Below, piece after piece: positions 5,002-36,175 of a stretch of 64,000 nucleotides of DNA. The DNA is taken from NCBI GenBank assembly GCA_002709295.1, contig PAQL01000017.1, positions 44,298-108,297 on the forward strand, read 5' to 3'. Below the pieces are notes generated by a model, which searched no databases, was not told the origin of the DNA, and worked only from the letters and a program-made list of their open reading frames with translations. Position 1 is the stretch's first letter. Each line of letters begins with the position of its first letter. The DNA is from Phycisphaerae bacterium (GTDB taxonomy: Bacteria; Planctomycetota; Phycisphaerae; Phycisphaerales; SM1A02). The position numbers and the translations under genes are program-made.

Positions 5002-7242
5002 GTGAGCTCATCCCACCCACACCACGCAGGACACCATCACGACGGATCCGAGCCCCGGGACACCGCTTCTTCGGCCTCCTCGAGGTTCTCGGTCGAAGGC
5101 ATGCATTGCGCCGGGTGCGCTTCCGGGCTCCAGGAGGCCCTTCTGGCCATGCCCGGCGTCAGCGATGCGACGGTCGATTTCGTGGGAGGGACCGCGGTGG
5201 TCGCGGGCTCCGCCCCGGCTGCGGAGATCCTGAAGACGATCGGCCACCAGGGCTTCGAGGGCGAGGATCTCGGCACCAGGTTCGATCTTCAGGAGACGCG
5301 ATCCAGGCTCGAACGGGCACAGGCCTCATCCGTGCGGCTGTGGAGACGCCGGGCCATCGTCGGCCTGGGATTGTGGTTTCCTCTGGAGACCCTGCACTGG
5401 ACCATGGGAGGCCACCAGCACACCTGGCTTCCCTGGGTGATGCTCTTCGGTGCCGCGATCGTCCTCGCCGTCGCCGGCGGCGGGTTCTACGCCTCCGCAT
5501 GGTCGGCCGCCCGCCGCGGCGGAACGAACATGGACACCCTGATCTCCATCGGGGCCACCACGGCCTTCGGATGGAGCCTGATCGTCTTCATCATGCAGCG
5601 ATGGGGGGGCGAGAGCGCCGCCATCTGGATGGAACGACCGCTGTACTTCGCGGAATCGGCCGCCCTGCTCGGGGTGATCAGTCTCGGTCACTGGCTGGAG
5701 GCGGCCGCGTCGCAGCGGGCCGGCGCAGCGGTCCGCGAGCTTCTCGAACTCCAGCCCGACGAAGCCGAGCGACTCGAGGAAGGCGACCGTGTCGTCCGGA
5801 TCGCCAGCAGCGAGCTCGCGATCGGCGACCGGATCCAGGTGCGTCCCGGGGATCGGATTCCGGTCGACGGCATGGTGCTCGAAGGCCGGAGCGAGATCGA
5901 CGAATCCCTGGTCACCGGCGAACCGATACCGGTGGACCGGACCCCCGGCGACCCGGTGGTCGCCGGCACCGTCAACGGCACCGGCCGGCTGGTGATCGAG
6001 GCCGTGGTGGACGGCCGGAACACCACCGTGACCCGCATCGCCGAGCTGGTGCGGAACGCCCAGTCCAGCCAGGCACCGATCCAGCGTCTCGCCGATCGCG
6101 TCAGCAGCATCTTCGTTCCCGTGGTGATCTCCATCGCGTTTCTGAGCGCGATGGGCTGGGGACTGCTCGGCGGCGACTGGGAGACCGGCGTGGTCGCGGC
6201 GGTCACGGTCCTGATCATCTCGTGCCCCTGCGCTCTGGGACTCGCGACCCCGATGGCGGTCATGGTCGGCGCGGGCGAGGCCAGTCGCCGAGGCATCCTG
6301 GTCAAGGGGGCGGCGGATCTGGAATCCGCAGGCCGCCTTCAACGGGTCTACTTCGACAAGACCGGCACCCTGACCACCGGTCACCCGACCCTCGGCGAGA
6401 TCCGACTGCTCCCGGGGGCCGGCGAACTCGATCGCAGAGCCGTGCTCGCACTCGCGGCAACTGCGGAGACCGCGAGCGAGCATCCCCTGGCGAGGGCGAT
6501 CGTGGAAGCAGCGATCGACGAGGGCATCGTGCCCGCCGCCAGCGAGTCCTTCACCTCCACCCCGGGCCGCGGCGTGGAGGCGATGGTCGAGGGACGACGG
6601 GTCGAGGTCGTCCGCGACGAGCGGGCCAGCTGCCGGGTGATCGTCGACGGTGAGGACGTCGCGACCCTCGAACTCACGGATCGACCGCGCCCCGACGCCG
6701 CGAAGGCGATCGCCCGCCTGAGGTCGATGGGACTCGAGGTGCGGATGCTGACCGGCGACCGGGAGGCGGCGGCCCACCGGATCGGCGAGGAGCTCGGACT
6801 CGCCCCGGAGGAGATCGATGCCGATGCCACCCCGACCTCCAAGCTCGAGACGATCACCTCGGCGGGCCCCGGCACCGCCATGGTCGGGGACGGCATCAAC
6901 GATGCCGCGGCCCTCGCCGGGGCCGGACTCGGCATCGCGATGGCCGGAGGAACCGGCACCGCCATCGAGACCGCCGGCGTGGTGGTGCCGCCCGATCGCG
7001 TCTCGAGCGTTCCCGAGGCGATCCATCTCGCCCGGCGGACCCTGACCACCATCCGCCAGAACCTGTTCCTCGCGTTCGTCTACAACAGCCTGGCCATTCC
7101 GGCCGCCGCCTTCGGCCTGCTCGGGGTTCACGGACCTCTGATCGCGGCGGCGGCCATGGCCTGCAGCGACGTGTCGGTGATCGGCAACGCGATCCGGCTG
7201 CGTCGTTCCCTGACCAGGGAACGACGGCGCAAGCAGCACTGA
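5002..7242 (+). CDS. copA: Copper-exporting P1B-type ATPase
   Basis: This 746-aa heavy-metal ATPase pumps Cu(I) out of the cytoplasm using ATP. A histidine-rich N-terminus (residues 5-13) is followed by one heavy-metal-associated domain with GMHCAGC (Cys36, Cys39). Then come the membrane region, the CPC metal-site motif in ISCPCALG typical of Cu+ pumps, the phosphorylation motif DKTGTLT, and the hinge GDGINDA. One HMA domain and this length are normal for bacterial CopA. The start is GTG. It stands alone, without a chaperone or CopY/CueR regulator beside it. Confidence 0.93.
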   Translation: MSSSHPHHAGHHHDGSEPRDTASSASSRFSVEGMHCAGCASGLQEALLAMPGVSDATVDFVGGTAVVAGSAPAAEILKTIGHQGFEGEDLGTRFDLQETRSRLERAQASSVRLWRRRAIVGLGLWFPLETLHWTMGGHQHTWLPWVMLFGAAIVLAVAGGGFYASAWSAARRGGTNMDTLISIGATTAFGWSLIVFIMQRWGGESAAIWMERPLYFAESAALLGVISLGHWLEAAASQRAGAAVRELLELQPDEAERLEEGDRVVRIASSELAIGDRIQVRPGDRIPVDGMVLEGRSEIDESLVTGEPIPVDRTPGDPVVAGTVNGTGRLVIEAVVDGRNTTVTRIAELVRNAQSSQAPIQRLADRVSSIFVPVVISIAFLSAMGWGLLGGDWETGVVAAVTVLIISCPCALGLATPMAVMVGAGEASRRGILVKGAADLESAGRLQRVYFDKTGTLTTGHPTLGEIRLLPGAGELDRRAVLALAATAETASEHPLARAIVEAAIDEGIVPAASESFTSTPGRGVEAMVEGRRVEVVRDERASCRVIVDGEDVATLELTDRPRPDAAKAIARLRSMGLEVRMLTGDREAAAHRIGEELGLAPEEIDADATPTSKLETITSAGPGTAMVGDGINDAAALAGAGLGIAMAGGTGTAIETAGVVVPPDRVSSVPEAIHLARRTLTTIRQNLFLAFVYNSLAIPAAAFGLLGVHGPLIAAAAMACSDVSVIGNAIRLRRSLTRERRRKQH

Positions 7243-32758: not shown

Positions 32759-33445
32759 ATGGCCGAACCGACCCATCTCATCCGCATCGAATGCCCGGGA
32801 GAGGAATCGACCGAGCGGGTCGGCGAGATCATCGCCGAAGTGGCTTCACCCCCGGTCTGCATCACCCTCGAAGGCGAGCTCGGCGCCGGCAAGACCCGTC
32901 TGGCCCGCGGCCTGGCCCGAGGCCTCGGACTCGATCCGGATGCGGTCTCCAGCCCCACCTTCGTCATCCACATCGAACATCGCGGAGAGGACGCATCCAC
33001 GCCGACCTTCAGTCACCTTGATGCCTATCGCATCGGAGACGAGGAGGAGCTCGAGCCGATCGGCTTCGACGAGATCCTCGCGGATCCGGAAAGACTGGTC
33101 GCCATCGAGTGGGCCTCCCGGATCGGGAGCGCCCTTCCCTCCGATCGCATCGATGTCCGGATCGACCATCGCGGAGAACACGACCGGGCGGTGACCGTCT
33201 TCGACGCCCGGGAGGACGACGCCCGACGACTTCGTCTGCGGGAGGCCCTCGAGGCTCGAGCCGCCGCGTGGTGCACCACCCTCGGCGCGGAACGATCATG
33301 CCCGACCTGCGGCGCGACCTGCGAGGATCTCGAGTCCCGACCGTTCTGCTCGCAGCGATGCCGACTCGCCGATCTCGCCGGATGGTTCGGCGGCGACTTC
33401 TCGATCAGCCGCCCGCTGAACGCCAGCGACCTGCTCGAGGACTGA
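32759..33445 (+). CDS. TsaE-YacG fusion: tRNA t6A ATPase with gyrase-inhibitor zinc finger
   Basis: This is a 228-aa single frame. Residues 1-155 are TsaE, the ATPase that with TsaB and TsaD makes t6A37 in tRNA: Walker A GELGAGKT (39-46), SPTFVI, HLDAYRI and AIEW. Residues 178-220 are a YacG zinc finger (C181, C184, C197, C201, then RLADLAGWFGGDFSI), a domain that in E. coli inhibits DNA gyrase. There is no in-frame start near the junction, so the two are truly joined. The C184 to C197 spacing is shorter than in E. coli YacG. Confidence 0.88.
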   Translation: MAEPTHLIRIECPGEESTERVGEIIAEVASPPVCITLEGELGAGKTRLARGLARGLGLDPDAVSSPTFVIHIEHRGEDASTPTFSHLDAYRIGDEEELEPIGFDEILADPERLVAIEWASRIGSALPSDRIDVRIDHRGEHDRAVTVFDAREDDARRLRLREALEARAAAWCTTLGAERSCPTCGATCEDLESRPFCSQRCRLADLAGWFGGDFSISRPLNASDLLED

Positions 33446-33476: not shown

Positions 33477-34442
33477 ATGTCGCGACCCCACCGACTCCGA
33501 CCGAACCTCCTGCTCGCGGCCGCACTGCTGGCCGGATCGCTCACCACGATCACCGTCGCGCAGGAGACCGACGCGGCAGTCGCCCCGACGACGAAGGAAC
33601 TTCTGGAGATCGCCCGCCGGCCCGGCCCCTCGACGGTCGCGACCCTGAGCGAGAAGGACGGCATTCGAAACGGCCCGGACTATCGCGGCGGCACCATCCA
33701 CTATCCGACCACGAAGGACGGCTCGATCGCCGAGGGCGGTCCGTTCCCGATCATGGCGATCAGCCCCGGATTCAACGCCTCGGAGGGATCGGTGCGACCC
33801 TGGGGGAGATACCTCGCCTCCCACGGCATCGTGACCATGACCCTGGGGACCAACACCCCCAGCGATCGACCACGCTCCCGGGGCAAGGCCCTACTGGACG
33901 CGATCGAGACCGTGCGGGCCGAGAACACTCGTGAAGGGTCTCCGCTGCAGGGCCGGCTCGCGGTGGACCGCACCGGCGTCGCCGGCTGGTCGATGGGCGG
34001 CGGAGGCGCCCAGCATGCCGCGGTCATGGACGCCTCGCTGAGGGGCGTGGTCGCGATGGTTCCCTGGCAACCGGTCTATCGATTCGAGCACGCCGTGCCG
34101 GTGATGATCCTCGCAGGCGAGAAGGACAACGTCGCCTCGACCCGCGCTCATTCCCGACCGCACTTCGACAACCCCCCCGACTCCACACCGAAGCTCCTCT
34201 TCGAGATCCGTGGCGGAGGGCACTTCCTTCCCGGCAGCCCCGGCAATCACCGGGGCGAGGTCGGGGCGTGGACGCTCGCCTGGATCAAGACCTTCGTGGA
34301 GGACGATCCGGCCTGGCGTGGAGTCCTCGAGCTCGAACCCTCGACCGCGAGCATCTACGAACTCTCGCTGCCCGGAGAGACCTCGCCGGTGAAGGACGAG
34401 GCGCCCGCCGAGGAGACGGCCGCCCCCGGGGATCGCGATTAG
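33477..34442 (+). CDS. Secreted cutinase/PETase-like alpha/beta hydrolase
   Basis: This 321-aa exported hydrolase has a signal peptide ending at about residue 28 (TVAQ). It aligns closely by eye with bacterial cutinases and PET hydrolases: oxyanion loop SPGFNAS (F99), WGRYLASHGIV, nucleophile G-W171-S172-M-GGGG, W197 in VPWQP, acid D217 (GEKDNVA), and H249 (GGGHFLPG). The Trp before the serine is the variant seen in Ideonella PETase, where most cutinases have His. There are no cysteines, so no disulfides. GGAG lies 7 bases before the ATG. A 40-residue acidic tail is extra. It could be a polyester, lipid or wax esterase. Confidence 0.85.
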   Translation: MSRPHRLRPNLLLAAALLAGSLTTITVAQETDAAVAPTTKELLEIARRPGPSTVATLSEKDGIRNGPDYRGGTIHYPTTKDGSIAEGGPFPIMAISPGFNASEGSVRPWGRYLASHGIVTMTLGTNTPSDRPRSRGKALLDAIETVRAENTREGSPLQGRLAVDRTGVAGWSMGGGGAQHAAVMDASLRGVVAMVPWQPVYRFEHAVPVMILAGEKDNVASTRAHSRPHFDNPPDSTPKLLFEIRGGGHFLPGSPGNHRGEVGAWTLAWIKTFVEDDPAWRGVLELEPSTASIYELSLPGETSPVKDEAPAEETAAPGDRD

Positions 34443-34999: not shown

Positions 35000-36175
35000 A
35001 TGAACGGCTCGGTGCTGGCTTTCGAACCATGGGACGCGGGATCGCACCGAGCGGTTCGTCGCTCGATCACCCGGCACGGACGCATGGACTGGCGGTTCCT
35101 GACCCGCCCTGGCCGCTCGCCCCGCTGGCGACTTCGGCACGCGGCCCTGTCCTTCGCGGAGGAGACGCATGCCGATCCGATCGCGGGAGCGGGGGGGGAG
35201 CCACCCCTCGCCCACGACCGGGTGGCGGCGGCCTTCGCCACCGGCATGCTCTCCCTGGCCGATCTTCGAGCCGCGATGCCGGGGTCCCTCCGGAACCGTC
35301 CGTTCATCCTCTCGATGCATGAGAACCAGGCCGCCTATCCGGTCTCCGGGGACGTCTCCGAGCTCACCCGCGATCGAGACGCGCATCTGGCATTCACCAA
35401 CCTCGCCTCGATGGAGGCGGCGGACCGAATCGTCTGGAACAGCCACTGGAACCTCGAGTCGTTCCTCGAGGGGATGTCCGCATCGATGCGTCATGCCCCC
35501 GAACCCGTGGGGGACGACTGGGCCGGACGGATCAGGGCGAAGTCCACGGTGGTGGCTCCACCGATCGAGGTCTCCGAGATCGACGACGCGATGGTTTTAC
35601 GTAACCCCCCCGCCGCTCGTTATCGGGACGATCCACGGCACGACCGACCGCCGACCCTCGTCGCCTGGCCGCATCGCTGGGAACACGACAAGGGCTGCGA
35701 CGAGCTCCTGCAGCTTGCCGACGAGGCCGCTCGGCGGGAAGTCGACGGCGGACCGGCGATCCGCTGGGTCATCCTGGGCCACCGACCCCAGGATCCGCCC
35801 GAAGCCATGAAGACGCTGCTTCGACGGCACGGGAAACGCATCGCCCACGCGGGCGAAGCCGACCGATCGGACTACCTGGGCTGGCTGGCGGGCTGCGACT
35901 GGGTGCTCTCGACGGCCAGACACGAGTTCTTCGGGATGGCGGTCGCCGAAGCACTCTTCGCAGGATGCCTGCCATGGCTTCCGTCGCGATTGGCCTACCC
36001 GGAGCTGGTCCCCGAGGACGCTTTGAACCTGAACCCATGGGACAGGCCGTCCGAGGGGACGATCACGGCGTTGCGGCCTCGGATCCGGAACCGACTGGAA
36101 CGGGCCCGAGCCGAGGTCGCGGTGGACCAGCTGGAGACCGTGGTCATGGAGACCATCGAGTCCATGAGGACCTGA
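35000..36175 (+). CDS. DUF3524 glycosyltransferase, tRNA-queuosine alpha-mannosyltransferase homologue
   Basis: This 391-aa GT-B glycosyltransferase resembles animal GTDC1/QTMAN, which mannosylates queuosine in tRNA-Asp. Family motifs are FEPWDAGSHR (8-17), RWRLRHAALSFA (42-53), MHENQ (106-110), NSHWNLESFL (147-156) and WPHRWEHDKG (223-232), followed by a nucleotide-sugar site (STARHEFFGMAVAEAL). Codons 198-202 include GTT TTA CGT, unusual in this genome, and form part of a 13-bp repeat. The acceptor could also be a lipid or other sugar; tRNA is inferred from the family. Confidence 0.78.
   Translation: MNGSVLAFEPWDAGSHRAVRRSITRHGRMDWRFLTRPGRSPRWRLRHAALSFAEETHADPIAGAGGEPPLAHDRVAAAFATGMLSLADLRAAMPGSLRNRPFILSMHENQAAYPVSGDVSELTRDRDAHLAFTNLASMEAADRIVWNSHWNLESFLEGMSASMRHAPEPVGDDWAGRIRAKSTVVAPPIEVSEIDDAMVLRNPPAARYRDDPRHDRPPTLVAWPHRWEHDKGCDELLQLADEAARREVDGGPAIRWVILGHRPQDPPEAMKTLLRRHGKRIAHAGEADRSDYLGWLAGCDWVLSTARHEFFGMAVAEALFAGCLPWLPSRLAYPELVPEDALNLNPWDRPSEGTITALRPRIRNRLERARAEVAVDQLETVVMETIESMRT
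35593..35605 (+). repeat. 13-bp repeat copy 1 (GGTTTTACGTAAC)
   Basis: This AT-rich 13-mer within the glycosyltransferase gene has an exact inverted copy at 36394-36406. It contains the palindrome TTACGTAA. See the second copy for context. Confidence 0.5.

Follow-up and report, generated by a model that had tools for sequence, protein, structure and literature searches.

The open reading frame at positions 33477–34442 (+) of the window (the whole stretch of 64,000 nucleotides that was analysed) encodes a serine hydrolase of 321 amino acids that is a true member of the PETase family and, judging from its sequence and its model, very probably an esterase. It is an ordinary member of the branch that contains PET30 of Kaistella jeonii, and not a PETase of the Ideonella type. 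The kind of protein was already known, and this is a rare member of it; the main interest lies in a first planctomycete enzyme that bears on whether the M5 rule for PET activity holds outside the Pseudomonadales clade.

Family assignment and predicted structure

The gene begins with ATG, is preceded by a GGAG box and is separated from the preceding tsaE gene by 31 bases. Its GC contents at the three codon positions (0.68/0.55/0.85) resemble those of the neighbouring genes and of the host, in the genome of which it is present as a single copy. The protein was matched by the Pfam model PF12740 (PETase, PET hydrolase-like) with 176.4 bits (curated cut-off 28 bits) and an E value of 1e-51, which places the assignment to the PETase family far beyond chance. 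Kinship with chlorophyllases or dienelactone hydrolases, raised in the initial annotation as an objection to a PETase-like hydrolase, was not found: the corresponding Pfam models gave no match to the protein up to E=1, and the fold search led to PET esterases. The NCBIfam model NF051441 (BHET hydrolase BdeA), with which the fold family is shared, scored 152 bits, far under the model cut-off of 520.

In a sequence search of the PDB, PET30 (7pzj, 5e-68) was the best match, followed by 7cwq (2e-42); a profile built from five planctomycete proteins widened this gap (7pzj 2e-98, next entry 2e-60). An AlphaFold2 model prepared from 33 aligned sequences (pLDDT 90.4) was used for the fold search, and 7pzj was again at the top (E 4e-32, rmsd 1.2 Å, 46 % identity), followed by LCC, Cut190, and IsPETase with identities of 30–33 %. 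The comparison with PETase and cutinase structures that had been recommended thus gave a PET30-like fold. A closed active site, the other objection raised, is not suggested by the model at the level of the fold; the matched structures are open-cleft polyesterases.

Active-site residues and putative export signal

Column-for-column alignment with IsPETase and LCC bore out the earlier placement of S172, D217, H249, and W197 on the cutinase/PET hydrolase framework. The equivalent residues (window protein/IsPETase/LCC) are F99/Y87/Y95, W171/W159/H164, S172/S160/S165, M173/M161/M166, W197/W185/W190, D217/D206/D210, and H249/H237/H242. On the plus strand, the branch signature G62-I-R-N-G-P-D-Y69 (GxRxGPxY, 33660–33683) is followed in the alignment by the oxyanion loop P97-G98-F99 (33765–33773), the nucleophile elbow G170-W171-S172-M173-G174-G175-G176-G177 (33984–34007), P196-W197 with the substrate-clamp Trp (34062–34067), the catalytic Asp D217 (34125–34127), and the catalytic His H249 with the next residue, F250 (34221–34226); Phe stands here as in LCC, whereas IsPETase has Ser238. 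Sequence and model together show an intact Ser-Asp-His triad, the oxyanion residues F99 and M173, and the aromatic clamp W171/W197.

Three further traits had been described correctly in the initial annotation: the oxyanion loop carries Phe where both reference enzymes have Tyr, the entire 321-residue protein contains no cysteine and therefore no disulfide, and the C terminus is acidic, with eight D/E versus two K/R among the last 27 residues. The final residues (302–321, 34380–34439, +) form a tail that is predicted to be disordered, and the domain search gave no match to a type IX (PorC) sorting domain. Residues 1–30 (33477–33566, +) resemble an N-terminal export signal, with a basic part (RPHRLRP), a hydrophobic part (NLLLAAALLAGSLTTITV, hydropathy peak 2.1), a likely cleavage site after TVA, no lipobox Cys, and low pLDDT. 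This signal peptide-like N terminus fits the secretion that had been proposed and suggests Sec export to the periplasm or to the outside.

Phylogeny and marks of the branch

Among 84,980 species genomes scanned, relatives were obtained at 68 loci, which belong to Phycisphaerales bins, Saprospiraceae, Flavobacteriales, Neomarinimicrobiota, one opitutacean, and Myxococcales; more distant relatives occur in Actinomycetota and Burkholderiales. Carriage of the gene by phages or plasmids was rejected, as none of the viral contigs encodes a relative and the plasmid matches are distant (identity at most 35 %).

In a tree of 75 rows, for which the rows of the reference enzymes were taken from PDB alignments, the window protein groups with Phycisphaerales proteins (support 100/99) within a planctomycete branch (99/94, starred) that includes one gammaproteobacterial bin. 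The adjoining Bacteroidota–Neomarinimicrobiota branch contains PET30 (98/93), and the two are joined with support of 95/82 (starred). Forcing the window protein to the side of the characterised type I and type II enzymes cost 75 log units and was rejected by the AU test (p 1.6e-51). The window protein is a member of the PET30 branch, apart from types I and II. Strict monophyly of the planctomycete rows without the gammaproteobacterial locus L040 was neither supported nor rejected (p 0.37); this locus (6001–6765) comes from a bin labelled Gammaproteobacteria UBA1119, and the position of its protein among planctomycete ones may reflect transfer or mis-binning. The homologue in G002 (L005/L031), a genome of the window's own genus, is 47 % like the window protein, against 55 % for genus g23, and sits on a long branch, for which fast evolution, transfer, or hidden paralogy may be considered.

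The PET30 branch is marked by GxRxGPxY, mostly GTN versus DTN, GGGGAQ versus GGGG[TS]L, and His at positions 205 and 229, all of which occur in the window protein. GxRxGPxY is kept in the planctomycete and in nearly all Bacteroidota members and is absent from the type I/II rows. The triad, W171, and M173 are invariant across all planctomycete homologues, and H205 and H229 are conserved throughout their branch; the C-terminal disulfide is missing across the planctomycete rows, the few core cysteines of which sit elsewhere.

The Trp before the nucleophile had been read as the residue known from Ideonella rather than the His of most cutinases. The Trp is indeed present, and type I cutinases such as LCC typically have His, but the Trp does not mark a link to Ideonella: it is usual in the PET30 branch and is found in several other PETases, and grouping with types I and II was rejected. 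Trp171 occurs in 15/15 planctomycete rows and in 21/29 Bacteroidota rows, PET30 included, counts that are partly biased, since Trp is selected for by one of the two patterns used in the search; among the loci with the other pattern it was present in 29 of 38. Being this common, it is not a variant of note, and an Ideonella affinity through W171 was discarded. His or Phe precedes the catalytic Ser in the flavobacterial loci L034, L043, L045, L046, L050, L058, L065, and L068, and three of these have Lys for the Met after it, so that this position is variable within the branch. In the Neomarinimicrobiota loci L048, L059, L062, and L073 the C-terminal tails look, by eye, like dockerin repeats (GDLNSD...LNVQDIILIVNIIL).

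Comparison with characterised enzymes

The window protein shares with PET30 the fold (1.2 Å), the triad, the Phe oxyanion residue, Trp-Ser-Met, GxRNGPxY, GTN, GGGGAQ, the equivalents of H205 and H229, and the lack of an active-site disulfide. It differs (46 % identity, planctomycete host) by a clamp Trp, as in PET27, for the Tyr of PET30, by Phe for Ser after the catalytic His, and by having neither the C-terminal disulfide nor the type IX (PorC) sorting domain of PET30. Since the sorting domain is specific to Bacteroidota and neither feature is universal among the Bacteroidota members (PMC8767016, Table 3), they were not treated as defining the branch. With PET27 (Aequorivita sp.), likened by its published description, the Phe-Met-Trp binding set is held in common (PMC8767016).

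IsPETase (type II, Ideonella sakaiensis) shares the family, the triad, Trp-Ser-Met, and the equivalent of Trp185, but it is about 32 % identical and belongs to another branch, its Tyr87 is replaced by Phe, and both of its disulfides are missing from the window protein. Among the type II traits (Trp159, Ser214, Ile218, Ser238, and two disulfides) Trp159 alone is present, with His225, His229, and Phe250 in place of Ser214, Ile218, and Ser238. Ser214 and Ile218 are held to free the wobbling Trp, and with H225 and H229 at these positions the Trp-freeing traits are absent from the window protein. LCC and the actinobacterial cutinases (type I) share the family, the triad, and the equivalents of His218 and Phe243; in contrast to them, the window protein has Trp for His before the Ser, Phe for the oxyanion-loop Tyr, His for LCC Phe222, and no disulfide.

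Proposed function and possible PET activity

That the protein is an exported α/β-hydrolase serine esterase of the PET30 (Bacteroidota–planctomycete) branch is considered highly probable on the strength of the PF12740 match (1e-51), of PET30 as best match by both sequence and fold, of the tree, and of the branch marks. The protein appears best read as a promiscuous esterase or polyesterase that is old and exported. S172, located in an open surface groove and activated by H249 and D217, would attack the ester bond to give an acyl-enzyme, which would then be released by water. In nature the enzyme would most likely cleave esters or polyesters of natural origin (lipids, cutin- or PHA-like material) in marine particles; if it hydrolysed PET at all, it would do so weakly and incidentally, in keeping with the activity measured for PET30.

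PET27 and PET30 act as promiscuous esterases and show little activity on PET: within 120 h, 174 nmol of TPA was formed by PET27 and 3 nmol by PET30, against 811 nmol by IsPETase (PMC8767016). In an ocean survey of 2025 (PMC12224614), 11 enzymes were expressed, PET activity was confined to those with the M5 motif, tested M1–M4 enzymes were inactive, and non-M5 homologues were dismissed as inactive; Planctomycetota/Phycisphaerales are noted there only among the M1–M4, non-M5 "pseudo-PETases". M5-PETases are defined there by Met after the Ser and a C-terminal DxDxR(Y)xxFxC. The Met is present in the window protein, and the C-terminal segment reads E275-D-D-P-A-W-R-G-V-L-E285. By inspection, the aligned C terminus of PET30 (NDCYCSVLA) appears to lack the M5 end as well, and because PET30 is nonetheless weakly active, the M5 rule does not hold without exception in this branch.

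That the protein is an esterase specialised for a natural ester or lactone that is small or soluble, and is inactive on polymers, is a real possibility, although a less than probable one. H205 and H229 are conserved in the planctomycete branch, H229 replaces the Phe or Ile beside the clamp Trp of characterised PETases, an enzyme without an outer-membrane sorting domain may stay periplasmic, and PET inactivity is what PMC12224614 reports for non-M5 ocean homologues; yet PET30 has both histidines and acts on PCL, Impranil, and PET (PMC8767016), and the model matches open-cleft polyesterases. That the protein functions strictly as a PETase, with a biologically useful rate of PET degradation in the service of PET use, is very unlikely. 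The family fold, the M4-type features (PG[YF], GWSMGGGG, full triad), and an aromatic clamp complete with W197, which is Tyr in PET30, would fit it, as would PET27, which with the same Phe-Met-Trp set gave 38 times more product than PET30 (PMC8767016). Against it stand the C-terminal segment, which departs from DxDxR(Y)xxFxC, the inactivity of the tested M1–M4 enzymes, with which Planctomycetota/Phycisphaerales are listed (PMC12224614), the replacement of IsPETase Ser214/Ile218/Ser238, and the long-standing presence of the gene within genera, which speaks against a plastic-driven origin. The host genome likewise gave no match to Ring_hydroxyl_A or to the Tannase family (MHETase), the latter a weak absence because the tannase control matched nowhere, and a PET assimilation gene set was rejected with this reservation.

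For the promiscuous esterase or polyesterase, weak PET hydrolysis is possible; measurable hydrolysis would be somewhat unlikely, and a PET-dedicated role is most unlikely. We regard it as doubtful, though worth stating, that the planctomycete branch is a genuine lineage of polyester hydrolases with measurable PET activity, free of disulfides and with a conserved extra His (H229) by the clamp Trp. Judged by the searched literature, such activity would be without precedent in Planctomycetota, and the M5 motif would then miss active ocean enzymes. A review of 2026 describes the possibility of planctomycete PETase-family enzymes as overlooked (PMC12976661).

Host, distribution, and gene neighbourhood

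The host is likely to be a marine member of the Phycisphaerales, in line with the marine planctomycete proposed in the initial annotation. The lineage had also been called poorly sampled: sampling is thin, but Planctomycetota/Phycisphaerales homologues already figure in the 2025 survey (PMC12224614). The gene was found in 15 of the 181 genomes of the host family, in four genera (g1, g7, g23, g34), and among 392 genomes drawn across the phylum the window's own was the sole carrier. This pattern suggests an old accessory gene that was not gained in response to plastics. Recent horizontal transfer from Bacteroidota into these planctomycetes would account for the patchy occurrence in four genera of one family, with absence elsewhere in the sampled phylum, and for gene surroundings that differ between genera; it is nevertheless improbable, as the planctomycete proteins make up a starred branch of their own, into which a single gammaproteobacterial bin falls, the GC content is host-like, and the position is constant within g23, g7, and g34. 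An old transfer may have occurred instead.

In the window the gene is surrounded by core genes, as had been noted, which encode a thioredoxin-like protein, a KDO transferase, a ThiL-like AIRS protein, TsaE-YacG, Fur, and a queuosine mannosyltransferase; they carry no hint of the substrate. Gene order around the PETase-like gene is kept inside g7, g23, and g34 and differs between genera. A functional operon with waaA-thiL-tsaE was rejected, because relatives do not conserve this order and in G002 and G008, two genomes of the family, tsaE is found on different contigs. No weight was given to typA, which is located 3–10 kb downstream both in the window and in g7, each time with the same relative orientation but with nothing found in common in the stretch between. 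One open reading frame at 32759–33445 (+) combines TsaE (residues 15–144) with a YacG zinc finger (residues 180–222); a single-frame match over both parts was obtained in many relatives of the order, and separate matches in several others. The product of 35105–36175 (+), beside the PETase-like gene, resembles a tRNA-queuosine α-mannosyltransferase, with a QTMAN_N and a glycosyltransferase domain.
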